From the IMG/VR virus record IMGVR_UViG_3300009537_000168, positions 1 through 24,405 of that record: a stretch of DNA of 24,405 bases, one strand, 5' to 3'. The DNA is from a virus. The translations under genes were made by a program, and so were the position numbers. Positions 3,005 through 24,315 of the stretch are shown here, piece after piece; within the stretch, counting starts at the first letter, position 1; the number at the start of each line of letters is the position of its first letter. The notes under the pieces were generated by a model. The model worked only from the letters and a program-made list of their open reading frames with translations, was not told the origin of the DNA and searched no databases.

Positions 3005-4801
3005 ATGGCGATTGCCTTTACTAACCTAGGTAACAGCGCAGATTTTACGGCGAATAACTCTGATCCGCCCGACATCAACGACGGTACGAATACAACCTCG
3101 TATTCTAACGCCAGTTGGACGCCGCCTACTACCGGGCTGATCGTTGCGTTTGTTGAGGCGCGCCGGAATGGTGGGCCTGACACGCCGACCATGAGCGGCA
3201 ACGGCATGACCTGGGTGCAGATTGGCACGACGCTGGACACCACCGCTGACGGAAACGGCTTATCGCTGTTCGGTGCTGATTTATCTACATCGTCAACCGG
3301 CGCAACTACGGTTGACTTCGCGACCAATACGCAGGTGCATTGTGTTGTCTCGTTCTTCCAGGTTACCGGCGTTGACTTGTCCGGTGGTCTAGCAGCCGCT
3401 TTTGTGCAGAACCCACGCAACACCGGAACCGGCACAACCGGCAGTATCACGCTGGCGTCGGCGGGAAGCTCAGACAATCGTGCGATTGCCTGCTTCCATC
3501 ACGTCTTCAAGGAGTACAAAACGCCGCGCACGAATTGGACAGAAGTTGACGATCTGATCGGCGCGGGACAGAACCGCGGCGTACAAACACAGTGGCGCAC
3601 GGATGCGTTTGAGACGACGGCTTCTGCCGATTGGTCAACCTCAACTGACTGGGGCGGGATTGCGGCGGAACTCAAAGCGTCTGTCGCCGGTGCAACCCTG
3701 GCAGTTGCCGACCTTGCGACCGTTGCGGCGCTTGACACATTCGCGCTGACGCAGGTCCACAACGTAACCGTCGCCGACCTTGCGGTAGTCGCACAGATAG
3801 ACGCGATCAGCCTGACGCAAGTACACAACCTGACGGTACAGGACTTAGCCGTCACCGTTACGATTGACAATGTAGACCTGACGCAGACAAGCAATCTGGT
3901 AGTTGCTGACCTTGACGTTACGGTTACGCTTGACGCAGTAAACCTGACACAGGTTCATAACATCACAGTCAACGGCCTTGATACCGTTGCGACGATTGAT
4001 AATATTACGCTGACGCAGGTTCACAACCTCGTAGTGCAAGACCTGGATGTAACCGTCACGATCGACAACGTGACGGTTGACCAGGCTGCAAACCTGATAG
4101 TAGATGACCTTGCGACTGTTGCGACAATTGACGCCGTAACGCTGACACAGGTCCACAATATCACGGTTAGCGATCTTGACGTAGTAGTCGCGGTGGACAG
4201 CATCACGCTGACGCAGGTCCACAATTTGACGGTGCAGGATCTCGCGGTTATTGCGACGATTGACAACGTGGTTCTAGCAGGTGCCGGAGCGCTGACCGTT
4301 TCTGACCTCGATGTAGTAGTCACGATTGATAACGTCACATTGACGCAGGTGCATAACCTGACGGTTCAAGACCTGGCCACAGTCGCAACGATAGATAACG
4401 TCACGCTATCAGTTGCGGGCGACTTGATAGTTCAAGACCTGGATGTGATTGTCACAATAGACAATGTGACGCTAACGCAGGTCCACAATCTGACGGTTGC
4501 CGATCTGGACGTAGTGGCGGCGATTGACAGCCCGGTACTGACGCAGACGCATAACCTCGTGGTTAGCGACCTGGTGGTAGTGACAGAGCTTGAGGCCGTC
4601 ACGCTGACGCAGGTGCATAACCTGAGCGTGGATGATCTCGCAGCCATCGTGACGATAGACAACATCACATTTGTGGCGGCTGTGACCGGCCTGATTAGCC
4701 TGACCTTATTCAGTCGCACACCGGCGCAGACATTAGACAGCCGCACGCCAGCACACACGCTGTTGAGTCGTTCGATGGCGCAGACGTTGGAGGATAAGTA
4801 G
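3005..4801 (+). CDS. Virion protein with 14 x 22-residue beta-repeats
   Basis: The start is placed at the ATG at 3005, because CGGAG lies 8-9 bases upstream and the in-frame sequence before it is proline-lysine low complexity made by the previous gene's tail. The 598-residue product has three parts. Residues 1-230 form a Thr/Ser/Gly-rich jelly-roll-like domain. Residues 232-247 are a partial repeat, and 248-555 are exactly 14 repeats of 22 residues with consensus LTQVHNLTVxDLxVxxTIDNVT. Residues 570-596 are three 9-residue SRxxAxTL repeats. The alternating hydrophobic pattern suggests a beta-solenoid or fibre shaft. It sits among head genes, so a head fibre, decoration or adhesin is the likely role. 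No enzyme motif is visible. Confidence 0.75.
   Translation: MAIAFTNLGNSADFTANNSDPPDINDGTNTTSYSNASWTPPTTGLIVAFVEARRNGGPDTPTMSGNGMTWVQIGTTLDTTADGNGLSLFGADLSTSSTGATTVDFATNTQVHCVVSFFQVTGVDLSGGLAAAFVQNPRNTGTGTTGSITLASAGSSDNRAIACFHHVFKEYKTPRTNWTEVDDLIGAGQNRGVQTQWRTDAFETTASADWSTSTDWGGIAAELKASVAGATLAVADLATVAALDTFALTQVHNVTVADLAVVAQIDAISLTQVHNLTVQDLAVTVTIDNVDLTQTSNLVVADLDVTVTLDAVNLTQVHNITVNGLDTVATIDNITLTQVHNLVVQDLDVTVTIDNVTVDQAANLIVDDLATVATIDAVTLTQVHNITVSDLDVVVAVDSITLTQVHNLTVQDLAVIATIDNVVLAGAGALTVSDLDVVVTIDNVTLTQVHNLTVQDLATVATIDNVTLSVAGDLIVQDLDVIVTIDNVTLTQVHNLTVADLDVVAAIDSPVLTQTHNLVVSDLVVVTELEAVTLTQVHNLSVDDLAAIVTIDNITFVAAVTGLISLTLFSRTPAQTLDSRTPAHTLLSRSMAQTLEDK
3746..4669 (+). repeat. 14 tandem 66-bp units encoding a 22-residue repeat
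   Basis: Fourteen consecutive in-frame units of exactly 66 bp, each coding for about LTQVHNLTVQDLAVTVTIDN plus two residues. The most conserved DNA core is near CTGACGCAGGTNCAYAA. Units 4, 7, 10, 12 and 14 (counting from residue 248 as unit 2) vary the LTQVHN corner, with LTQTSN, VDQAAN, LAGAGA, LSVAGD and LTQTHN. The spacing never changes. Many differences are synonymous, so the array is old rather than a recent expansion. Confidence 0.9.
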
Positions 4802-5141: not shown

Positions 5142-6623
5142 ATGGCAGGCATTTACACATACCAACAAGGCGCCAGCGGCAAGGCGATTAATATAAACCA
5201 GTTCCCACCCGAAGCCTGGTCAATCATCACCGGCGGCGATAGTGATGGCAACAATGCCGACCTGGAGCGGCTGTTCAAGGCCGTGCCATGGCTCAATCGC
5301 GGCGTACGCATCCTCGCCAACGGTATGTCTAACCTTCCCTGGGTGATACTCAACAGCAAGGGCGAGGAAGTTGACGGCAGCGAGGATTATCAGAACGCGG
5401 CCGGTATATGGGACGATCCATTCCGTGATCTGTGGCTCATGGAGGCCAGCTTCGTGCTGTTCGCCAAGTCCTACTGGATGATCGAGCGGCGCGGACGCGG
5501 GCGCATGACGATACCGGCGGGCCTGCGCTATTTTGTGCCGCACACCGTCACACCATTGCAGGACAACGAGCGCGGTCTGGTCGGCTTTGAGCGGAACATC
5601 CAGGGCAGACCCCCGGAGACGTTCGCGATTGATGAAATGCTTTACATCTGGGACAACGATCCGTTCCAGGAGTTGGAGCCGAAATCATCGCGCGCAATTG
5701 CCGCGCTTGCCGCCGCCGGAGTGCTGGCGAACATTGACGAATTCGCAGCCGACTTTTTCAAGAAGGGGATGATTAAGACGACATTGCTGAAGCTTTCTGG
5801 AAACCCGCCTCCGGCCGAGAAAGAACGTTTCAAGGCGATTTGGGGGAAGTTAATGAAGGGTGCCAAAACAGCCTGGGAATCTCTGGTTGTCAACGCCGAC
5901 TCGGTAGAACCTGTTGTAGTTGGCGAAGGTATCGGCGAGCTTGGTAACACCAAGTTGACCAGCGAGAAGCGCGAGGACATCGCCACGGCGCTGGGCGTGC
6001 CGCAATCGTCACTATTCTCGAGCGCGGCCAACTTTGCCGTGAAGGAAGGCGACAAGCGTGACCTGTACGAAGAGGCAGTCATCCCTGACAGCCGCATCAT
6101 TGCAAGCGCACTCAACAACCAGTACCTTGTCCCGCAGGGTTATCGCCTACAATTCCGGCCAAACGAGATGGACATCTTCCAGGAGGATGAGGAGGATCGA
6201 TCCGGTGCTGTCGTGAATTACATCAACGCCGCTCTAGTTGCGCCGCCGAAAGTCACGCGGGTTGTATTCGAAATGATGGGCGTCGAACTTCCCGGCGGAA
6301 TGGAGTATGATGAATTTGAAAAGATGCTGGCGGAGAGCAAGGAAAGTATGCCGGAGCCAGTAGCCGAAGCGACCCAGGGGTCTTTACGTCCCGTCGGCGG
6401 CACATTGCCGGAGGATGACGGGGAAGGTAAATCGCTCATGCTGGCGGAGTGGGACGCCTGGAAGCGTAAGGCGCTCAAGCGCGTCAAGCGCAACCGGACG
6501 GCAGCAACACCGTTCAAAGCGGATCATATCCCGGCTGAGCTTGTTGACCTGGTAACCGTGCTGCTTGAGGAAGCGACCACGGTCAAGCGCGTGCGCGAGA
6601 TATTCGCAGCCGCGGAAGGATAG
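5142..6623 (+). CDS. Phage portal protein
   Basis: The 493-residue protein should form the dodecameric ring at the head vertex through which DNA enters and leaves. It matches HK97/SPP1-type portals. The N-terminal wing contains VPWLNRGVRILANGMSNLPW (about 48-67). The stem and crown region contains NIDEFAADFFKKGM (about 196 onward), followed by LGVPQSSLF and the NFAVKEGDKRDLYEEAV segment (about 284-315), then the typical FRPNEMDIFQEDEEDRSG and APPKVTR motifs. The C-terminal about 90 residues are charged and less conserved. The start is supported by CCAGGAG 6 bases upstream of the ATG. Size, motifs and position after TerL agree. Confidence 0.93.
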   Translation: MAGIYTYQQGASGKAININQFPPEAWSIITGGDSDGNNADLERLFKAVPWLNRGVRILANGMSNLPWVILNSKGEEVDGSEDYQNAAGIWDDPFRDLWLMEASFVLFAKSYWMIERRGRGRMTIPAGLRYFVPHTVTPLQDNERGLVGFERNIQGRPPETFAIDEMLYIWDNDPFQELEPKSSRAIAALAAAGVLANIDEFAADFFKKGMIKTTLLKLSGNPPPAEKERFKAIWGKLMKGAKTAWESLVVNADSVEPVVVGEGIGELGNTKLTSEKREDIATALGVPQSSLFSSAANFAVKEGDKRDLYEEAVIPDSRIIASALNNQYLVPQGYRLQFRPNEMDIFQEDEEDRSGAVVNYINAALVAPPKVTRVVFEMMGVELPGGMEYDEFEKMLAESKESMPEPVAEATQGSLRPVGGTLPEDDGEGKSLMLAEWDAWKRKALKRVKRNRTAATPFKADHIPAELVDLVTVLLEEATTVKRVREIFAAAEG

Positions 6624-8104: not shown

Positions 8105-8310
8105 AATGCGAATATTGTGATACCCCGCGCGAGAAAGGACGCACTAGCTGCCACAAGTGCGGCGGGCCGCTCCCAAAAGGATCGCACGACCCGGAGATAA
8201 TCGTTCGTAGCCCAACTATGACTGTTGATTATTCCGGCCCTTATTCCGCCATGGGCCGTTCGCAGTACTACACTCGCATGTCATCAACCTCAACCCCAAT
8301 CTATGATTGA
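8101..8310 (+). CDS. Small zinc-ribbon protein
   Basis: The 69-residue protein starts with a compact zinc-ribbon: C3xxC6 and C17xxC20 (MKCEYCDTP...SCHKCGGPL), a metal knuckle pair sufficient for one zinc ion. The remainder is Ser/Thr/Tyr-rich with no predicted helices. It lies between small head-region genes and overlaps the next gene by 8 bases. The role is unknown; such ribbons often bind nucleic acid or stabilise a small scaffold. Confidence 0.65.
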   Translation: MKCEYCDTPREKGRTSCHKCGGPLPKGSHDPEIIVRSPTMTVDYSGPYSAMGRSQYYTRMSSTSTPIYD

Positions 8311-9430
8311 CACAATCACGCTGATCGGACGCGCCCCGTCCACCCGGCACCACATAGCGGACATCGGGCCTGACGAGAAGATATACACCATTGCGGCGTG
8401 TTGGGACATTGTACCCAGGATTGACGCCTGCGTTGAAATCCACCCGCTGTGGGCGCTGTCCCATCCGAACTATGATTCCAGCGGCGAACTGTGGAAATGG
8501 ATCAAACAACCGCACGACTTTCCGTTGTACATGCAGGACCGCTATGCAAACGTGCCAGCGTCGGTGCGCTTCCCGAAAGAGGACGCACTCGGCCAGGTGC
8601 CGATATTCCGCGGCGATAAGCGCAACGAGTACGCATCGTCCTCGTTTGACTGGCTGATGGGCCTTGTTATCCTGGAGCAGCCGCGCCGCATCAAGATAAT
8701 TGGCTATGATATGGGCAGTGAAACGGAGTGGCGCTATCAGCGCGAGGGCGCATCGTCCTGGATCAACTTTGCCGCCGGACGCGGTATCGAGGTCTGGCTG
8801 CCGCCGGAATGTTCGCTGCTACGCGGGATGCTGTACGGTTACGAAGGTGCACAGGCGATCCAATACAAGCGCCTCGACAGATTGAGTAAGCAGGCCGATA
8901 AATGGATGGCGGACAAGCGCGTCCATTTCGAGACGTTGAACGAGAGCATCCCACGTGCCGAGACTGTCGAGACGGCGGAGGGCAACGGGCTGTTGTACCA
9001 GGATCTGAGTAAGGCGCGTGATGACTTCTTCTTGATGAGCGGCGCACGCCAGGCATTAGACGAGCTGCGCGAAAAGAGCGGTATTGGCGATATCATCACC
9101 CGCCAGGCGCTTGAGACGCAATCGACGGTTGCGCGCGTGGAGAATATGAAACTTAGCTCAGCGCTGAATTTCTGGGAGGGCGTGGTCCGCGATCGCAAGC
9201 AGCGCTATGACGATAACAAAGCCTTCCCCGACAACGCCGGTATATTCCTGCGAGAACTTGAGGACGCTCATAAACGCCAGAACAAGGCGCGGGATGACTT
9301 CTTCACGTGGAAAGGTGCGCTGCAAATGGTCAATGAGCTTATTCACGAATGCGACTTCGGTCCTAACAAGGACTGGTCGCCAGTGAGCGATGTACTATCG
9401 CTTGAGGTGGACGTGCGTGCAGAGAGCTAA
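8303..9430 (+). CDS. Rossmann-type protein with duplicated helical module (paralogue B)
   Basis: The ATG at 8303 is preferred to an earlier in-frame TTG because it aligns the first strand (TLIGRAP, residues 6-12) with the paralogue at 2041. Residues 1-195 repeat that protein's Rossmann pattern: EIHPLW (45-50), SSFDWLMGLV (113-122), RIKIIGYDM (129-137) and RYQREG (144-149). Residues about 190-350 hold two copies of a helical module marked by KARDDFF at 237-243 and 328-334, each followed by GA and an xEL helix. Paralogue A has one related module. Total length is 375. No Shine-Dalgarno is seen; coupling to the preceding gene is likely. Enzymatic function is not provable from the sequence. Confidence 0.72.
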   Translation: MIDTITLIGRAPSTRHHIADIGPDEKIYTIAACWDIVPRIDACVEIHPLWALSHPNYDSSGELWKWIKQPHDFPLYMQDRYANVPASVRFPKEDALGQVPIFRGDKRNEYASSSFDWLMGLVILEQPRRIKIIGYDMGSETEWRYQREGASSWINFAAGRGIEVWLPPECSLLRGMLYGYEGAQAIQYKRLDRLSKQADKWMADKRVHFETLNESIPRAETVETAEGNGLLYQDLSKARDDFFLMSGARQALDELREKSGIGDIITRQALETQSTVARVENMKLSSALNFWEGVVRDRKQRYDDNKAFPDNAGIFLRELEDAHKRQNKARDDFFTWKGALQMVNELIHECDFGPNKDWSPVSDVLSLEVDVRAES

Positions 9431-9648: not shown

Positions 9649-11445
9649 ATGGACGAAAAAAACGAACATCTTGCGGATGACGATTATCTGGTCTGGTACG
9701 GCGATGCAGTCAAGGCGCTCGGAGACGGGCGCGTCGGCGGTTATCTGGTGCGCTTCACTTCGCCGGATGATCCGGACATGGAGGGCGACTACTTCGACGC
9801 CGCAACCGACTTTGGTGAATTGAAAACCTCGGCAGTCTATTACCAGCACGGTATGGACCCGCGTCTCAAGACGCGCAGACTCGGAGTTGCTGAATTGTCA
9901 GAGGACGAATTCGGCGTATGGGCGGAAATGCAACTTAGCCTGCGAGACGAGTACGAAAAGTTTATTTATGACATGACCAAGGCCGGGAAGATGGGATGGT
10001 CATCCGGCACGGCACCGCACCTTGTAGAAAGGGAGCGGTCGGGGAAGTCCTGGCACATCAAACACTGGCCGCTTGGCCTGGATGCGTCATTGACACCGAC
10101 CCCCGCCGAACCACGCAATACAGCAGTATCACTAAAATCGTTGAAATCTTCCGAGCTAGAGGCGTCCGAAAGGTCAAACAATGACGACGACGCGAAGCCC
10201 GCCGAAGTTCAAACTGTAACGGCTCATGTAGATGAGCAACCCAAACACATCGAGTTTACCAAAACTCAGGAGGACATAACCATGTCTGACGAAACCAAAA
10301 CTCCTGATGTGGTCGAGGAACCCATGGAAGCTAAGTTCAAAGCACTCAGCGCCCAGGTAGATCAAATCCTCAAGGCCATCCAGGACAGCCCAAAGCTCGA
10401 GCGCGGCGGGTATTACACCAATGACGGCGGCGCAAAAGACGCCGGGCATAAGTCATTCGGCGACTGGCTGCTCGCAGTCAAGCGCAATGATATGAAGCGC
10501 CTGGGAACGGTCTATGCTCAGAAGGACTTGGGAAAAGACACCGGCTCCGCTGGTGGATACCTGGTCCCCGAGGAATACGCTAATCAGCTTTTACAGATTG
10601 CGACCGAAGCCAGCCCCATTGCTAACCGCGTTCAACGCGTCCCGGTGGGCGTTAATTCCGGCGTGTATCCGGCGCTTGACTACTCAGTCGCGCCGACCGC
10701 GGGCAGCGGACAATCGGCCCTGGCTGCCGGTGTTTCCGCCGCATCGACCGAGGAAAACGCAGCGCTTACTGAGGATGAACCCATCTTTCGTGAGTTGAAT
10801 TGGCGGCTTCACAAAGTCGGCGGCTTCACTGATGTCAGCAATGAGCTGATTGCAGATAGTCCGCAGTCGGTTGAAGCACTGCTTACCTCGCTGTTCTCAA
10901 TCACCATCGCAAACAAAAACGAACGCAACATTATCCGCGGCTCCGGTGCGGGCGAACCGACCGGCATCCTGAATGCTGCATGTGCGATCGGCGTTGCGAC
11001 TGCCACTGATAACGCATTCGCCGAAGCCGACGCGCTGGCAATGTTCAGCCGCTTCAAGCGACTGAGCGCACAACAGCCGGTATGGATCATGCATCCCGGC
11101 GTTATTCCCGACCTCGCCAGCTTCACGGCCAGCAATCAGGACCTGGTTGATTGGCGCGTGGGCGTTAGCGGCAGCCTGTTGGGTTATCCGATCCTGTTCT
11201 CCGAGCACATGCCTCAGGACGACGGGGACGATGTTCTCCTGGCAGACCTCGGTGCTTACCTCTGGTTCCAGAAGGGCGTGCTTGAAATCGCCTTCTCGGA
11301 GCATGTAGGCTTCAAGAGCGATCAGGGTACCTGGCGCTTTGCGCAGCGAAATGACGGCATGGCCTGGTTGAACGCAGCTATCACACTCGCAGATCCGACC
11401 GGCAGCTACACCGTTAGCCCGTTCGTATTCCACAACGACGCCTAA
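9649..11445 (+). CDS. Fused prohead protease / scaffold / major capsid protein (HK97 fold)
   Basis: The 598-residue protein combines two usually separate proteins. Residues 1-165 are an HK97-type prohead protease (U35-like) with H67 in YYQHG, S118/S119 in GWSSGT, and D145 in the LDASLTPTPAEP motif as the likely third residue. Residues 166-260 are a charged, helical delta/scaffold-like linker. From about 295 the HK97 capsid domain follows: GSAGGYLVPEEYANQLLQIA, ASPIANR, then GSGAGEPTGIL and the WIMHPGV segment. An internal ATG at 10282 (M212) has a strong Shine-Dalgarno and would yield a 387-residue scaffold-capsid protein. The ATG at 9649 is favoured by AGGTG 5 bases upstream; an in-frame TTG at 9631 lies in the hairpin tail. 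The protease would free the capsid from itself after assembly. Confidence 0.92.
   Translation: MDEKNEHLADDDYLVWYGDAVKALGDGRVGGYLVRFTSPDDPDMEGDYFDAATDFGELKTSAVYYQHGMDPRLKTRRLGVAELSEDEFGVWAEMQLSLRDEYEKFIYDMTKAGKMGWSSGTAPHLVERERSGKSWHIKHWPLGLDASLTPTPAEPRNTAVSLKSLKSSELEASERSNNDDDAKPAEVQTVTAHVDEQPKHIEFTKTQEDITMSDETKTPDVVEEPMEAKFKALSAQVDQILKAIQDSPKLERGGYYTNDGGAKDAGHKSFGDWLLAVKRNDMKRLGTVYAQKDLGKDTGSAGGYLVPEEYANQLLQIATEASPIANRVQRVPVGVNSGVYPALDYSVAPTAGSGQSALAAGVSAASTEENAALTEDEPIFRELNWRLHKVGGFTDVSNELIADSPQSVEALLTSLFSITIANKNERNIIRGSGAGEPTGILNAACAIGVATATDNAFAEADALAMFSRFKRLSAQQPVWIMHPGVIPDLASFTASNQDLVDWRVGVSGSLLGYPILFSEHMPQDDGDDVLLADLGAYLWFQKGVLEIAFSEHVGFKSDQGTWRFAQRNDGMAWLNAAITLADPTGSYTVSPFVFHNDA
10268..10284 (+). 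promoter_or_regulatory. Strong internal ribosome binding site and start for capsid alone
   Basis: AGGAGGA (10268-10274) stands 7 bases before an in-frame ATG (10282-10284) that begins MSDETKTPDVVEE. It falls exactly at the boundary between the protease and the scaffold/capsid parts. It is the best Shine-Dalgarno in the capsid region, better than the one for the full-length start. Initiation here would produce a nested 387-residue capsid precursor, ending at 11445. Confidence 0.75.
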
Positions 11446-19656: not shown

Positions 19657-19683
19657 AATAGCCCCCTACTCAAGGGGGCTATT
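19657..19683. terminator. Bidirectional intrinsic terminator between convergent units
   Basis: AATAGCCCCCT (19657-19667) pairs perfectly with AGGGGGCTATT (19673-19683) over 11 bp with a 5-base loop. A T-rich tail follows on the plus strand (GCTTTGT), and A-rich bases precede it (AACAAA), giving a T-run on the minus strand. It lies 32 bases after the last structural gene and faces the minus-strand unit that ends at 19853. Confidence 0.9.
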
Positions 19684-19852: not shown

Positions 19853-20185
19853 CTACTTACGGCCACGATACGGGCTGCAAATAAAACACTTTGCGCGCCG
19901 TGGATGGTTGCTGATGAATGGCCTTTTGCAATCAATACAGTATTCGGCGTGGTGAACCTGCGACCCTACTGGGATCGTGCGACCACTGATAGGTATAACC
20001 GACACGGTTGGCGGCAGTCCTAGAGCTGCGCGTAAGTGCGGCTTGACTGGCTCTTGTTTCCGATTGATTACCTTCCATATATAAGCCCGCGAAACCTCGT
20101 CAAAGTCGGCGGCTATACTTTCGTATGTTTCGCCTTCTGTGATGCGTTTTTTTAGTGTGTCGTATAGTGTATCGAAATTCATCAT
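19853..20185 (-). CDS. HTH plus zinc-ribbon DNA-binding protein
   Basis: The 110-residue protein has an N-terminal helix-turn-helix (residues about 13-45, TEGETYESIAADFDEVSRA then YIWKVINRKQ). A linker contains LRAALGLPPT, and the protein ends in a zinc knuckle pair C83xxC86 and C100xxC103. Short proteins of this HTH/GLPP type are common as unassigned phage and plasmid regulators. It is the last gene of the minus-strand unit and is separated from the others by about 80 bases. A 16-base palindrome lies 8 bases upstream of its start, suggesting autoregulation. No clear Shine-Dalgarno is visible; the first two codons are both ATG. Confidence 0.72.
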   Translation of the reverse strand: MMNFDTLYDTLKKRITEGETYESIAADFDEVSRAYIWKVINRKQEPVKPHLRAALGLPPTVSVIPISGRTIPVGSQVHHAEYCIDCKRPFISNHPRRAKCFICSPYRGRK

Positions 20186-20264: not shown

Positions 20265-20420
20265 TCAGTCCTTCGCGCTTATCGAAAACCAACACGCACA
20301 AACCAGAAAAAATGTCGCCTGAGAAATATCACCTTTTATAAATTCGCCCGCTGCTATCACGGAGCTTATCAGCGACATAAACATCATTATTACCTGAAAT
20401 ATTATTTTAGCTTTACCCAT
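20265..20420 (-). CDS. Small membrane protein (51 aa)
   Basis: This short gene starts with an ATG that overlaps the upstream stop as TGATG, with GGGGGA just before it. The 51-residue product (MGKAKIIFQVIMMFMSLI at its start) has two hydrophobic stretches, about 6-24 and 34-48, with a polar GEFIKGD turn between them. The shape fits a two-segment holin-like hairpin, but nothing identifies its role. It continues the chain of overlapping minus-strand genes. Confidence 0.55.
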   Translation of the reverse strand: MGKAKIIFQVIMMFMSLISSVIAAGEFIKGDISQATFFLVCACWFSISAKD

Positions 20421-20647
20421 CATTCCCCCGTCTTATCAATCTTGTTTATAACCTTCGCCCACGTCCCCCACCCCACCACTTCCAACCGCTCCGCCAGCGC
20501 ATCCGCCAGCGTCTCGATCAGCGCGGCCCGTTCCGCCCCGGCCATGTCGCCGCTGTGCATGTGCGCGTTGGTTGCGACGGCTAGCATGTTCGACAGCCGG
20601 TCGATTTCGGGGTAGTCGGGGTGCGATGGGAGCAGGGAGCGGGTCAT
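20420..20647 (-). CDS. Small helical protein of unknown function
   Basis: The 75-residue product is preceded by TGAGGA 5 bases from its ATG. It is largely helical: PEIDRLSNMLAVATNAHMH, then GAERAALIETLADALAERLE, and the C-terminal WGTWAKVINKIDK segment. No membrane span or known motif is recognised. Its length, helix pairs and place between membrane peptides would fit a small cytoplasmic accessory protein. The stop overlaps the start of the 51-residue gene downstream. Confidence 0.6.
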   Translation of the reverse strand: MTRSLLPSHPDYPEIDRLSNMLAVATNAHMHSGDMAGAERAALIETLADALAERLEVVGWGTWAKVINKIDKTGE

Positions 20648-20659
20648 TTAGTCCTCAAA

Positions 20660-20743
20660 CTAATCCGGCTTCCTCATAATAACTCCAAAATGCGTGTAAT
20701 CCGTGTACGTGTACATCACGGGGTGCATGTAATCGCTACTCAT
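20660..20743 (-). CDS. Possible 27-residue peptide
   Basis: An ATG overlapping the stop of the upstream gene (ATGA) opens a 27-codon frame (MSSDYMHPVMYTYTDYTHFG at the start, ending MRKPD) that stops 12 bases before the next gene. The overlap fits the pattern of its neighbours, but the peptide is tiny and Tyr-rich with no motif. It may be real or chance. Confidence 0.3.
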   Translation of the reverse strand: MSSDYMHPVMYTYTDYTHFGVIMRKPD

Positions 20744-21351
20744 CGGCGTTCGGTAGGGGAGTGTCTCACCCCGCCCACCTTGCCAAACCGTCTCGCGTCC
20801 GCCAGTGTGCTGACGATGTACGAATGTTTTAGCATAACCGACATCTTGCCGCCAACGCCGGGCTTGCTCCAACCGCGTGAACCGGAGCGCAGGACGAACG
20901 CACAAAGTCGCTTCCATTCCGATTGCTTCATGCCGTGCTTACGGCAAATCCGCCACGTCAATGCGATACCCTCGCGCGGGATACTTGTCCCGGCGCCGGT
21001 CTCATTCAGCAGCAGGTTGAGTAACGCGCCGTGAATAGCCTTATCCTGGCGCACCGCTTCGACGTGATCCCGCTCGCGCTTTTCTTCGGCTGCTGCGTGC
21101 GCCGTCGCCTTGCGTGCCTGCGCCTCCTGTCTGTACTCGCTGACCGATTTCCCCATTATCTTGATGGGGATTTTCTCGGCCTCGATTGCGCGTAAGAAGC
21201 TCAGCGCACTCATCACGCCGGTGAATTCCAGGATCACCATCACGACCGCGATACCAAGACCCTGGTACGTCCCGAGCCGGTACGCCAGCCATGCGGCGAT
21301 AAGCGCGCGGGCTGTTGCGAGGAGCGAGGCGCGCACGAAGGCGTCACGCAT
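20740..21351 (-). CDS. Membrane-anchored protein with basic C-terminal domain
   Basis: The 203-residue protein has two N-terminal membrane segments (about 8-25 and 30-52), then a charged, probably coiled-coil stretch (EYRQEAQARKATAHAAAEEK, about 72-91). A basic C-terminal half follows, including HGMKQSEWKRLCAFVLRSGS (about 139-158). The last part resembles a small winged-helix or nucleic-acid-binding fold, but this is a guess from charge and helix pattern. GGAG precedes the ATG by about 5 bases. The gene overlaps a 47-residue membrane-peptide gene upstream. Role unknown; a membrane-tethered DNA-interacting protein would be unusual. Confidence 0.65.
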   Translation of the reverse strand: MRDAFVRASLLATARALIAAWLAYRLGTYQGLGIAVVMVILEFTGVMSALSFLRAIEAEKIPIKIMGKSVSEYRQEAQARKATAHAAAEEKRERDHVEAVRQDKAIHGALLNLLLNETGAGTSIPREGIALTWRICRKHGMKQSEWKRLCAFVLRSGSRGWSKPGVGGKMSVMLKHSYIVSTLADARRFGKVGGVRHSPTERR

Positions 21352-21487
21352 ACGTCTCCAACTCTTCCAACTCCCCCACCAACTCCAGAAGCACGCCGCA
21401 CACCACGATCAGCGCAAGCGCGGCGATGATTGCGGCAAGTACCAGCGGGGAGAGCAGGACCAGGGCAAGCAGGCGTAGGTATTGCAT
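21344..21487 (-). CDS. Small membrane protein (47 aa)
   Basis: An ATG with GGAG 7 bases upstream opens a 48-codon gene starting MQYLRLLALVLLSPLVLAA. One long hydrophobic stretch covers about residues 4-35. A short acidic helix follows (ELVGELEELETYA), giving a single-span peptide. It begins 3 bases after the previous gene's stop and overlaps the next gene by 8 bases. Function unknown; an antiholin-like or pinholin-like peptide is one possibility. Confidence 0.55.
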   Translation of the reverse strand: MQYLRLLALVLLSPLVLAAIIAALALIVVCGVLLELVGELEELETYA

Positions 21488-21489
21488 CG

Positions 21490-21732
21490 TCAATCTCCAA
21501 CGTCTCGCCAGCTTCCGCCGGTGAGTTCTGTTAAATAATAGGGTAACAACGGCAGCAGCAATAACACTGCCGCAATCGTCGCCACCCCTAACGCGCTCCA
21601 GCCCTCCACTTGCGTAATCGTTTCAGCCTGGTACAGTTTGCCGATAATGACGACTGCGCAACCGTACATGCCGACGACTGCAAAGGTATATCGGTCTTTC
21701 GGGCGGGATAATAGCGCGCGGATATATTTCAT
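21490..21732 (-). CDS. Small two-segment membrane protein, holin candidate
   Basis: The 80-residue protein has a basic N-terminus (MKYIRALLSRPKDRY), a first membrane segment at about 17-33, a polar turn (QAETITQVEGW), a second at about 47-68, and an acidic end (WRDVGD). A basic tip with two closely spaced spans is a common holin layout, and the endolysin lies in the same unit. Its start overlaps the stop of the upstream gene (ATGA). The holin reading is inference. Confidence 0.6.
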   Translation of the reverse strand: MKYIRALLSRPKDRYTFAVVGMYGCAVVIIGKLYQAETITQVEGWSALGVATIAAVLLLLPLLPYYLTELTGGSWRDVGD

Positions 21733-21953
21733 AAGTCAGCATCCTTATCATTGTCTAACAGAACCGATCCGATGACTATCGCCAATAACAACCAGCGCAG
21801 CCCATCAATCGGCCACGGAAACAATATCGCTACTGCCGCTAAGATGTAGCGCGGCAACCAGTAGCGCTTTTCGGCGTCGGTCAGGTGTTCGCGCCACAAC
21901 CAGACAACAGCGATGGCGGCGGCGATTGCGGCGATGGTGAATAGTAGGGTCAT
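21729..21953 (-). CDS. Small three-segment membrane protein, holin candidate
   Basis: The 74-residue product has three hydrophobic regions (about 2-19, 34-48 and 52-66) separated by a basic WREHLTDAEKRYW loop and a short PWPIDG turn, and ends in an acidic NDKDADL tail. Three closely packed spans in fewer than 80 residues match class I holins. An excellent AGGAGGA lies upstream of its ATG, implying high expression. It overlaps neighbours at both ends by ATGA. With the adjacent 80-residue membrane protein it may form a holin/antiholin pair, which the sequence alone cannot confirm. Confidence 0.6.
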   Translation of the reverse strand: MTLLFTIAAIAAAIAVVWLWREHLTDAEKRYWLPRYILAAVAILFPWPIDGLRWLLLAIVIGSVLLDNDKDADL

Positions 21954-22117
21954 TCCGATTCCTCCTCATCATCCGCATACCCTTCCCGCTCCGGCTTCGT
22001 CGGATGCGCGCGCACGATCTCGTCACCGTCCTGCTTATACAAGCCACAGGTGCATAGTCCGTCTGGCGTCTCGAAAAAGTGATATTGGGCGCCGTCGGGG
22101 TCGGTTACGCAGAACAT
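21950..22117 (-). CDS. Small acidic protein with three cysteines (55 aa)
   Basis: The ATG overlaps the endolysin stop as TAATG, with GAGG upstream. The 55-residue product starts MFCVTDPDGAQYHFFETPDG, contains C3, C22 and C24 (LCTCGLYKQDG), and ends in an acidic DDEEESE tail. The CxC and lone cysteine could bind metal with partners but do not form a complete ribbon. The end of the gene supplies the strong ribosome site for the next membrane protein. Unknown function. Confidence 0.55.
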   Translation of the reverse strand: MFCVTDPDGAQYHFFETPDGLCTCGLYKQDGDEIVRAHPTKPEREGYADDEEESE

Positions 22118-22848
22118 TATTTTACCTCACCGAATACCGCCGCCTCTAAATCCTCGACCCGTTCCTCAATCGTCTTTGGTATCGGCGGTTGCGGCGGGCG
22201 CGGCACGATCCCGATCCAGTCGTCCATCTCAAGCGGCGTACCGTTGAATACGTCCAGGTCGGCGGCAGTCGAACGAGCGAGGCCGAATTCCGTCCCATTG
22301 CCCTTGTCAGTGTACTGCCACAGCGCCCAATCAGTGACGCCGGTTGGCAGGCCGGGATTCTTATTAGGGCTCCAGAAGTACCAGTACTGCGCAATCCATA
22401 ACGGCCAGGCTTTCGGCTGATTACCGACGAACGGCGTCAGGTAGGTGTTGTAAATATACGGCGAGGTATACAAAACCACCTTGCCCGGGAAGTATTCTTT
22501 CAGCCAGGCCAGCGCCTTCATGCAATCATTAGCAGTCCGGGCGTTGAGGTTGTTATAACTAATCTCGTAATCCCAACACAGCCACTTATAATCCAATCCG
22601 GCAGTGTCCAGGAAAAATTTAGCCTGGTCAAGCCACGGCACGCTGGTACTGTAATAGTGGTACGCGCCTCGTCGCTTCATGCTCATCACGCCGGGTTTGA
22701 GTTGCAAGCGCAGCTCATCATGGCGCATCCCGTAACTCAGGCGCTGGATCACAAAATCAAGTTGCTTTGTTGCGAGATCCGGTCGGAAATACTGGTCATA
22801 CTTTGATATGTCAATCCCGTTCGCACGCGGCGTCAGGTCAGTTATCAT
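22117..22848 (-). CDS. Endolysin, GH25-family lysozyme
   Basis: The ATG at 22848 is chosen because GGAGG stands about 6 bases before it and GH25 homology begins at once; upstream in-frame sequence belongs to the RusA gene read in another frame. The 243-residue enzyme should cleave the glycan chain of peptidoglycan for lysis. It has GIDISKY (D13), FVIQRLSYG, AYHYY, the catalytic pair D93 and E95 in CWDYE, YTSPYIYN, LWIAQYW and WALWQYTDKG, followed by DLDVF. After the catalytic domain come a proline-rich linker (217-224) and a short coiled-coil-like helix (226-240) instead of a usual wall-binding domain. It overlaps RusA by 11 bases. Confidence 0.9.
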   Translation of the reverse strand: MITDLTPRANGIDISKYDQYFRPDLATKQLDFVIQRLSYGMRHDELRLQLKPGVMSMKRRGAYHYYSTSVPWLDQAKFFLDTAGLDYKWLCWDYEISYNNLNARTANDCMKALAWLKEYFPGKVVLYTSPYIYNTYLTPFVGNQPKAWPLWIAQYWYFWSPNKNPGLPTGVTDWALWQYTDKGNGTEFGLARSTAADLDVFNGTPLEMDDWIGIVPRPPQPPIPKTIEERVEDLEAAVFGEVK

Positions 22849-23200
22849 CTCCTGCCTCCAATATCTCAATTTCTGCGAAGTCCGGCCCGCGGCGTTTCGT
22901 CGCCTCCAGTCGGACACAGTAGCGATCGTCGTCATACGCAATCCCGTTCAGCGCGTCGGCGACTGCCTTGGCCAGGTTGTCCAGGTCGCACGTCAAGAAG
23001 TTGCGCCTGGTAAAGTGTGCGCGGAGCAGAAACGGCGTTTTGTCTGGCAGGCGCTTATTCCCGCACCGGCGCATCTGTAATTTGACGGACAGCGCAAGGT
23101 TTTCCTTGCTGGCGAAATATCTCCGGGAACGCGCGTTCCATTTGCTGCCCTGCGTGGTGCGGGTGTACGGGACGATCAGCCCGGGGCAGGAAAATTTCAC
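22838..23200 (-). CDS. rusA: RusA-like Holliday junction resolvase
   Basis: The 120-residue enzyme cuts branched DNA, which helps resolve recombination or replication junctions before packaging. The family signature is clear: VPYTRTTQGSKW near the N-terminus, then CDLDNLAKAVADALNG (71-86) with D72 and D74, and the acidic YDDDR (89-93). The length is that of RusA. Translation starts at a GTG that overlaps the upstream stop (GTGA), and the end overlaps the endolysin start. All acidic residues needed for metal-dependent cleavage are present. Confidence 0.92.
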   Translation of the reverse strand: MKFSCPGLIVPYTRTTQGSKWNARSRRYFASKENLALSVKLQMRRCGNKRLPDKTPFLLRAHFTRRNFLTCDLDNLAKAVADALNGIAYDDDRYCVRLEATKRRGPDFAEIEILEAGDDN

Positions 23201-23409
23201 CCTTCCCGCTCCGGCTCTAGATACGCCTTGGTAGTAACAATAAGCTCACCGCAATCAAAACAATGCCAATCGACGGCGTTGACCCCGTAGTACTCATAAT
23301 AATCAGTGACAAAACCATCGATATTATTTGAATTGCAATGGCAACAGACCTTTGGCCAACGCATACTTTTTTGCTCGTCTAATGTTGGTAGTTTATATTC
23401 TCGGTTCAT
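23197..23409 (-). CDS. Small zinc-ribbon protein
   Basis: The 70-residue product has two metal-knuckle pairs, CCHC (about 22-25) and CFDC (about 50-53), spaced as in a zinc ribbon, with aromatic-rich loops between (DGFVTDYYEYYGVNAVDW). The GGAAAGG upstream of the ATG is a good ribosome site and lies inside the preceding gene's end. It overlaps RusA by 4 bases. Such proteins may bind nucleic acid or a protein partner; no specific role is visible. Confidence 0.65.
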   Translation of the reverse strand: MNREYKLPTLDEQKSMRWPKVCCHCNSNNIDGFVTDYYEYYGVNAVDWHCFDCGELIVTTKAYLEPEREG

Positions 23410-23552
23410 CCTTTCCTCTCCTCATCAATCATGCGCCCCACCACCACGAGCCCGCCCAACGCAACGAGCGCGAACGCCCAGGATTGCCATCCGCCGTTTT
23501 CGTTCGGCACAAGGAGGATGGCCAGGAACAGCACGAACAGGAATCTCTTCAT
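23406..23552 (-). CDS. Small membrane protein (48 aa)
   Basis: The ATG overlaps the preceding stop (ATGA). The 48-residue peptide begins MKRFLFVLFLAILLVPNENG, which could be a membrane segment or a signal-like start. A second hydrophobic stretch follows (WAFALVALGGLVVVG, about 25-39), then a charged MIDEERKG end. Its tail encodes the Shine-Dalgarno of the zinc-ribbon gene. No known family is recognised. Confidence 0.55.
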   Translation of the reverse strand: MKRFLFVLFLAILLVPNENGGWQSWAFALVALGGLVVVGRMIDEERKG

Positions 23553-23701
23553 GGCGTCACCTGCGCCAGCGCCCACAGCAGCACGGCGGCGAACATAATC
23601 ATCGCACCGGCAACGACCGCGCAGGCCGTTACCATGCTGGCGTGTACGCTATGCTGTTCGTCAAGTTCGTGCAATGCTTGTTGGATTTCGTCCTCAGTCA
23701 T
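23549..23701 (-). CDS. Small membrane protein (50 aa)
   Basis: An ATG overlapping the upstream stop (ATGA) starts a 50-residue protein with an acidic amphipathic N-terminus (MTEDEIQQALHELDEQHSVH) and one hydrophobic segment (about 22-47, including TACAVVAGAMIMFAAVLLWA). It is a single-span peptide with its charged part outside the membrane. The arrangement resembles small phage membrane regulators, but no function is assigned. Confidence 0.55.
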   Translation of the reverse strand: MTEDEIQQALHELDEQHSVHASMVTACAVVAGAMIMFAAVLLWALAQVTP

Positions 23702-23811
23702 TTGTCACCTCGAAATGATTTCTCAAATAGCGCCGCAAGAAGCGCGCACGCGAAAAAGATACCTATCACGCCGTATATACTGCCTAACAACGTTTCAAAT
23801 AAATTCCACAT
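23698..23811 (-). CDS. Small membrane protein (37 aa)
   Basis: The ATG at 23811 has GGAG 5 bases upstream. Upstream in-frame sequence is GC-rich with hairpins and not convincing as coding. The 37-residue peptide starts MWNLFETLLGSIYGVIGIFF, has one membrane span (about 9-29), and ends with a basic KSFRGDK tail. It opens the run of overlapping micro-genes after the structured gap. It is below usual gene-calling size. Confidence 0.55.
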   Translation of the reverse strand: MWNLFETLLGSIYGVIGIFFACALLAALFEKSFRGDK

Positions 23812-24015
23812 TTCGTCTCCAGTGGACCTGGCCGATTCTGCCTCGGCGTCCTGCGCGCTCCCCCCTCGCGCCAGTCGATTGCTATTCAGGCCCGTGCCTC
23901 CCCTTCGGGGTGCAGGCCACCCAGACCTGCACCCGTCCAAAGGAGGAGAAGCGGGTTAGTCCCCGCACACCGCCGCCGAGAGACTCGGAAGCGGTAGGCA
24001 TGTGCTAAGTCGCTC
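23812..24015 (-). ncRNA. GC-rich hairpin region, possible structured RNA or attenuator
   Basis: About 200 bases between two minus-strand genes hold three successive stems: GGGTGCAGG/CCTGCACCC (23908-23916 with 23926-23934, 9 bp), GCGGG/CCCGC (23951-23955 with 23962-23966) and CCGAG/CTCGG (23976-23980 with 23984-23988). A CCCC/GGGG stem (23900-23910) competes with the first. A 39-codon minus frame (23882-24001, starting MPTASESLGGG) is possible but has no good ribosome site. No tRNA is recognised. Which strand is functional is unclear. Confidence 0.4.
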
Positions 24016-24315
24016 TTAATCGGTCACCCTTCTGATTTTCTCGGGGCTGTACTCTCTCTGGATACGGACTTCGTGAGTACCCGGCGGAAGCGTCCGCGTA
24101 TAGTGTTCCTGGTGTGTGAGTCCCGTTTCTTCGTCAAGCACAACCCACTGCTGCCCGGCCATTTCGCCGAACACAACGCCGGCCGTCAGGGTGTGATGAT
24201 GTCCGGTGGCCTCTCCGAGCGCCAGCGTTCTATCTTTGCGCGCCTTCGCACTTACCGGCTTCTCGCAGTCCAAAATTATGAAAACGTCGCCTTGTCTGAT
24301 TACCTGCTTTTTCAT
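24016..24315 (-). CDS. Conserved small protein with GHHH motif
   Basis: The start is the ATG at 24315, which has AAGGAG 6-7 bases upstream; an earlier ATG at 24348 lies inside the previous gene's end. The 99-residue protein begins MKKQVIRQGDVFIILD. It contains LGEATGHHHTL (about 33-43), then TGLTHQEHYTRTLPPGTHEV (about 64-83), and ends REYSPEKIRRVTD. The clustered histidines could bind metal in a small beta-barrel. A family with this QGDV...GHxH...LTHxEH...REYxPxxIRRV pattern is remembered from phages, plasmids and bacteria without a known function; no search was made. Confidence 0.7.
   Translation of the reverse strand: MKKQVIRQGDVFIILDCEKPVSAKARKDRTLALGEATGHHHTLTAGVVFGEMAGQQWVVLDEETGLTHQEHYTRTLPPGTHEVRIQREYSPEKIRRVTD

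Follow-up and report, generated by a model that had tools for sequence, protein, structure and literature searches.

Why does a phage carry eight membrane-protein genes around a single endolysin gene, and which of them belong to lysis? This question is raised by the minus strand of the virus record IMGVR_UViG_3300009537_000168, from an uncultured phage, in which seven genes for proteins of at most 80 amino acids (aa; 37-80 aa) and one for the 203-aa protein p203 surround the gene of a GH25 endolysin. The window analyzed here is the whole record of 24,405 bases, which is probably a fragment of a larger virus genome. An earlier annotation of this DNA, in the following called the sequence-only reading, had regarded seven such peptides as too many for a holin and had proposed a composite lysis, superinfection-exclusion or membrane-stress system. 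The clustering of membrane genes is exceptional, with about twice the largest number that we saw in the lysis cassette of a described phage. As explanation we somewhat favor the lysis-containing part of a tailed-phage minus-strand operon widened by membrane genes, in which the four genes downstream of the endolysin gene would form a holin-like set and the rest would be accessory.

The clustering was compared with two control sets. One set comprised 227 further contigs of viruses or prophages (2.8 Mb). Analyzed with the same gene caller and hydropathy rule, they contained at most 3 small transmembrane (TM) genes on one strand per 3.6 kb, compared with 7 in the window, and about 10% of the small open reading frames (ORFs) encoded a TM span, compared with 7 of 12 in the cluster. 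The other set consisted of 19 described phages, namely Bacillus, Streptococcus, Faecalibacterium, Butyrivibrio, Gordonia, Mycobacterium and Arthrobacter phages and an uncultured podovirus. Around their endolysin genes, 0-2 TM genes of up to 95 aa and 0-4 of up to 260 aa were present, compared with 7 and 8 in the window; this endolysin-centered comparison was made post hoc with a small control set, and the gap is wide. With about twice the known maximum in both controls and in the literature (PMC9671378), the statement that seven are too many for a holin was borne out.

The order of transcription on the minus strand is g99, m37, m50, m48, zn70, RusA, GH25, c55, m74, m80, m47, p203, p75, m52 and p110. 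The chain from m37 to m52 is composed as follows:

23698..23811, minus strand: m37, 37 aa with one TM span (residues 11-29); ATGA overlap with the next gene and GGAG before the ATG
23549..23701, minus strand: m50, 50 aa with an acidic N-terminus and one TM span (24-42); ATGA overlaps on both sides, caller score 10.8
23406..23552, minus strand: m48, 48 aa with two hydrophobic spans, hairpin-like; ATGA overlaps on both sides, caller score 7.4
23197..23409, minus strand: zn70, 70 aa with CCxxC...CxxC, zinc-ribbon-like; weak match to phrog_2993 (E 7e-5, an unnamed PHROG)
22838..23200, minus strand: RusA-like Holliday junction resolvase, 120 aa, GTG start; PF05866 E 3e-9, phrog_140 E 5e-12
22117..22848, minus strand: GH25 endolysin, 243 aa with a short C-terminal heptad tail; PF01183 E 4e-15, phrog_291 endolysin E 1e-19
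21950..22117, minus strand: c55, acidic 55-aa protein with cysteines; TAATG with GH25 and ATGA with m74, caller score 8.2
21729..21953, minus strand: m74, 74 aa with TM spans 1-19 and 48-66, holin-like candidate; caller score 15.9
21490..21732, minus strand: m80, 80 aa with a basic N-terminus (5 K/R) and TM spans 15-33 and 45-63, holin-like candidate; caller score 10.0
21344..21487, minus strand: m47, 47 aa with one very hydrophobic span (Kyte-Doolittle (KD) peak 3.18) and an acidic C-terminus; caller score 9.2
20740..21351, minus strand: p203, 203 aa with TM spans 4-22 and 32-50, then about 150 basic, mostly helical residues; caller score 22.2
20420..20647, minus strand: p75, 75-aa soluble protein after a 92-nt gap, absent from the sequence-only reading; caller score 13.0, weak match to phrog_1091 (E 0.0024)
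20265..20423, minus strand: m52, 51/52 aa with one strong and one weaker hydrophobic span; ATGA overlap with p75

All ORFs named in the sequence-only reading were found on the minus strand where it had placed them (ORF list, translations), and most starts of the chain are indeed preceded by a Shine-Dalgarno-like GGAG, AGGAG or GAGG. Its other descriptions held in part. One or two hydrophobic spans were seen in every one of the seven peptides, and in none the third span that had been allowed for; the zinc ribbon is suggested, if weakly, by the cysteine pattern and the weak match to the unnamed PHROG. Overlaps of the ATGA, GTGA or TAATG type, said to occur at nearly all junctions, were present at 8 of the 12 junctions in the chain (m37 to m52), while the others were -11 (RusA/GH25), +2 (m80/m47), -8 (m47/p203) and the 92-nt gap (p203/p75). 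Pairs of ORFs linked by ATGA or GTGA, both of at least 37 codons, occurred 10 times on the cassette strand and 4 times on the opposite strand; in 200 Markov simulations, 2.1 such pairs arose on average and never more than 6, compared with the 10 of the cassette strand.

For gene prediction, a codon-trained caller was used, which was trained automatically on the long ORFs of the window and scores codon use, start codon, Shine-Dalgarno sequence and overlap. A greedy longest-ORF count was dropped in its favor, because antisense ORFs hid real genes. The codon-trained caller picked all seven small membrane ORFs as well as c55, p75 and p203, at the coordinates of the sequence-only reading where it gave them, and no competing plus-strand gene in the cassette. 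The remark that five of the peptides are too short for typical gene callers was therefore overstated, since a simple codon-based caller recovered all seven. The default minimum gene length of Prodigal is 90 nt. The scores of m50, m48, m74, m80 and m47 were comfortable (7-16), and those of m37 (3.1) and m52 (4.8) were marginal; the AT-rich genes zn70 and p110 were missed. A test of synonymous codon use, which is independent of amino-acid content, was positive for five of the seven peptides and negative for m37 (z -0.3) and m52 (z -0.8). In its control the antisense register scored as well, so that the test backs the register and not the strand alone; full codon scores preferred the sense frame for m50, m48, m74, m80 and m47. 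Among the seven small membrane ORFs, m37 and m52 thus have the weakest gene evidence, and overlaps and hydrophobicity argue weakly for them as genes.

The endolysin itself, which looks intact, was assigned with 56.9 bits to PF01183 (cut-off 27; residues 12-184), has 4kru and 2wag as relatives in the PDB, and is encoded in a phage context, since the record also carries genes for terminase, portal and capsid. RusA reached 37.9 bits against PF05866 (cut-off 22.8). By hydropathy, neither a signal peptide nor a TM or signal-anchor-release (SAR) span or membrane anchor was recognized in the GH25 protein, and without such an export signal or span a holin is needed according to established lysis logic. 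Directly after c55 and on the same strand as GH25, the genes m74, m80, m47 and p203 follow each other; they are linked by overlaps (-4 and -8) and by a gap of 2. Only for these four membrane genes is a lysis role well supported, by their position and by analogy with actinobacteriophage cassettes. In the proposed mechanism, the GH25 enzyme, not being self-exported, would reach the wall through membrane holes made by holin-like proteins. One or two of the four, most likely the two-span proteins m80 and m74, which are the best holin candidates by topology, would gather in the membrane and trigger the holes, while m47 and p203 may tune the timing as antiholin or accessory proteins, a role comparable to that of the second TM protein in mycobacteriophage lysis cassettes. 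The single-sequence structure model of p203 had a predicted local distance difference test (pLDDT) score of 52, too low for a fold search. No convincing lipobox and no profile match of an Rz/Rz1-like spanin pair was recognized among the eight TM proteins.

The composition of the chain bears on how it may have arisen. Third-position GC content was 0.43-0.45 in m37, zn70 and m52 and 0.59-0.83 in m50, m48, m74, m80, m47 and p75, so that AT-rich and GC-rich genes alternate along the minus strand. In addition, a perfect direct repeat of 18 bp was found:

21979..21996, minus strand: copy 1, inside c55
23199..23216, minus strand: copy 2, at the end of zn70

The copies lie 1220 bp apart and flank the RusA-GH25-c55 block. 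Each encodes PEREG in the reading frame of its gene, c55 or zn70; possibly they are a recombination scar. Together, the alternation of AT-rich and GC-rich genes and the repeat favor a piecemeal assembly of the chain, in which small genes may have been gained step by step. An origin of the peptides by duplication was considered and rejected, as pairwise comparison revealed no convincing paralogy beyond hydrophobic bias.

Relatives were searched for several genes of the window. The large terminase (TerL) was 66% identical to a terminase on an Anaerolineales metagenome-assembled genome (MAG) contig and 67% identical to one in an unclassified MAG; other members of the TerL family, with at most 59% identity, were found in Firmicutes genomes. 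The closest GH25 relatives found were chromosomal genes of Anaerolineales (35-39% identity), those of phages reaching about 30% or less, and the phage gene may be derived from such host chromosomal genes. Judged by these relatives, the host is probably an Anaerolineales-type bacterium. Chloroflexi have been proposed to be monoderm (PMC5826079), and the lack of a recognizable lipoprotein/spanin pair is as expected for a single-membrane host. The TerL scans yielded 12 and later 80 viral loci, as well as 37 in genome contigs, and the micro-proteins were found in none of them; scans of viral contigs with GH25, RusA, p203, m74, g99 and tail proteins revealed no sister cassette. When p203, m80 and GH25 were searched against up to 400 Anaerolineales genomes, the only hits were weak ones ascribed to chance, or chromosomal GH25 genes that are not part of a lysis cassette.

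Two further observations were made in these searches. In one Anaerolineales genome (L237:6198-7883), two chromosomal GH25 genes lie in tandem; both belong to the closest relatives found for the phage enzyme. The contig IMGVR_UViG_3300025030_000076 (80305 b) carries two terminase genes of the TerL family about 54 kb apart (L190:4251-5474 and L192:18247-19473), which could mean that the contig holds two phages, that it was joined in assembly or that the gene was duplicated.

Several points weigh against a lysis block of four widened by accessory membrane genes. In Pfam, PHROGs and NCBIfam, no significant match to a holin profile was obtained for any of the eight membrane proteins, the best of the set being a very weak one of m80 to phrog_443 (E 0.07). 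A relative was detectable for none of the small membrane proteins in the searches described above, and because no membrane protein is conserved in a relative, we can only infer the gene status of m37 and m52. The presence of RusA in the same operon means that the unit is not purely lytic, and the host was deduced from the relatives of TerL and GH25 alone. It is also doubtful, though conceivable, that some short frames, chiefly m37 and m52, are untranslated and owe hydrophobicity and overlaps to chance, which would leave five or six real membrane genes. Their synonymous codon use departs from the genome pattern, another frame scores equally or better for both, and the test scores the antisense register too; both frames, however, have an ATGA overlap and a Shine-Dalgarno-like sequence, both pass the codon-trained caller, if barely, and a model trained on GC-rich structural genes disfavors AT-rich ones. 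With m37 and m52 left out, five small TM genes still exceed all controls. That the true genes at 23.3-24.0 kb are on the plus strand and the upstream trio m37, m50 and m48 is an artefact is very improbable: frames of 217 and 226 aa are open there (23306-23959 and 23328-24008, plus strand), but they were passed over by the codon-trained caller, have GTG or TTG starts, oppose the operon and would encode proteins of improbable composition.

The remaining alternatives concern what the membrane proteins do. If all eight formed one composite lysis apparatus with GH25, comprising several holins, antiholins and timing factors, then the single strand, the almost gapless overlaps from m37 to p203 and a gene count far above both control sets would be accounted for. 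This is nevertheless improbable, as the cysteine protein and RusA sit between m37, m50 and m48 and the endolysin, m52 lies beyond the 92-nt gap and p75, the chain is a compositional patchwork, and phages that require more than a few proteins of this sort are not known. Equally improbable is a graded lysis decision device of six to eight different micro-membrane proteins (hole-formers, inhibitors and sensors) in phages of an Anaerolineales-type monoderm host, which would be of a kind without prior description. Somewhat less unlikely, and the most serious of these alternatives, is that m37, m50, m48 and m52 are early host-takeover or superinfection-exclusion peptides that merely share an operon with lysis genes. 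Small membrane proteins are a common form of exclusion factor, the trio sits with RusA and the cysteine-pattern protein downstream of g99, and g99 adjoins non-lysis genes in many other phages; against this, no match to any exclusion or defense family was found (PADLOC, best E 0.03 to Csx18; Pfam and NCBIfam, none above cut-off). Of the composite system proposed in the sequence-only reading, lysis was hence retained for the downstream four, while nothing beyond hydrophobicity spoke for exclusion or membrane stress, with no significant match in Pfam, PHROGs, NCBIfam or PADLOC. A single system was not supported either: DNA-metabolism or unlabelled genes set m37, m50, m48 and m52 apart from the lysis block. 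These latter four are less likely to be lysis parts than accessory membrane genes with a role in exclusion, in host takeover or in the timing of lysis, which in the favored reading of a widened lysis operon would have been acquired piecemeal and stand outside any single machine.

The chain is flanked by the following features:

24016..24315, minus strand: g99, 5′ of the chain; phrog_27831 E 6e-11, a widespread phage protein (80 viral loci)
20209-20181, minus strand: promoter-like site upstream of p110
19853..20185, minus strand: p110, 110-aa cysteine-containing non-membrane protein from the ORF list, last gene of the strand
19657-19683, both strands: hairpin resembling a bidirectional terminator; it lies between the structural and the lysis transcription unit, which converge

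Several relatives of g99 have a long gene directly downstream, which is absent at that place here. For p110, PHROG and Pfam profile searches gave no clear family, and neither tRNA nor Rfam elements were found in the window. Convergent with the minus-strand unit, the plus strand carries a tailed-phage structural module with large terminase (389-1636), portal (5142-6623), fused protease/capsid (9649-11445) and tail genes up to 19624. Within it, the plus-strand genes 2041-2991, near TerL, and 8303-9430, before the capsid gene, encode paralogous proteins of unlabelled function (33% identity over 275 residues, E 7e-35). A 598-aa protein (3005-4801, plus strand) has a distinct N-terminal region followed by many diverged repeats of the type LTQVHNLTVADLDVVATID, too diverged for detection by a tandem-repeat finder.

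Among known lysis cassettes, those of Gordonia phages, in which LysA is followed by one to four distinct, non-duplicated TM genes and up to four were termed "unprecedented" (PMC9671378), are comparable. As in the Gordonia rubripertincta phages DumpTruck, LilyPad, PokyPuppy, DalanDe and Xenia2, the endolysin gene is followed by a same-strand run of distinct membrane genes, which there encode proteins with one to four TM helices and are unique genes inserted one by one into the run (PMC9671378, PMC11385102); convincing paralogy is likewise absent among the peptides here. In DumpTruck and LilyPad, the membrane genes near the endolysin encode 87-162 aa, and four lie downstream of lysA. In contrast to at most four membrane genes in these cassettes, the window has eight, seven of them of 37-80 aa, and three lie upstream, beyond RusA. 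Moreover, the endolysin is a GH25 enzyme instead of an amidase LysA, no LysB was recognized in the window, and no sequence relationship to the Gordonia membrane genes was detectable. Efficient lysis by mycobacteriophage F1 requires both a two-TM protein and a one-TM protein (LysF1a/LysF1b; PMC13056207). The pairing of a small two-TM holin-like protein with a one-TM partner resembles LysF1a/LysF1b, Ms6 gp4/gp5 and D29 gp11, and among these systems there is also a two-TM holin that, comparably to p203, has a long C-terminal part (PMC13056207, PMC9671378). However, they have one or two membrane genes and their function was tested, whereas here only sequence was read, and no sequence match between their lysis proteins and the membrane proteins of the window was found. 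Coliphage P1 (PMC9025707) also has more holin-like genes (LydA/LydB/LydC/LydD) than the textbook holin/antiholin pair, but with a SAR endolysin and a diderm host.

The locus would be an extreme form of a known type, the multi-holin lysis cassette, with a new number of membrane genes and with the function of most members a guess. Should the downstream four be all that counts, the cassette would be an ordinary multi-holin one, with the other membrane genes as passengers. The Gordonia work raised the question why several holin-like genes are kept by some phages, and about twice the maximum of four reported there is present here. With its very small proteins, and in a host group that has seen little phage research, the locus offers defined candidates for a division of labor in lysis.

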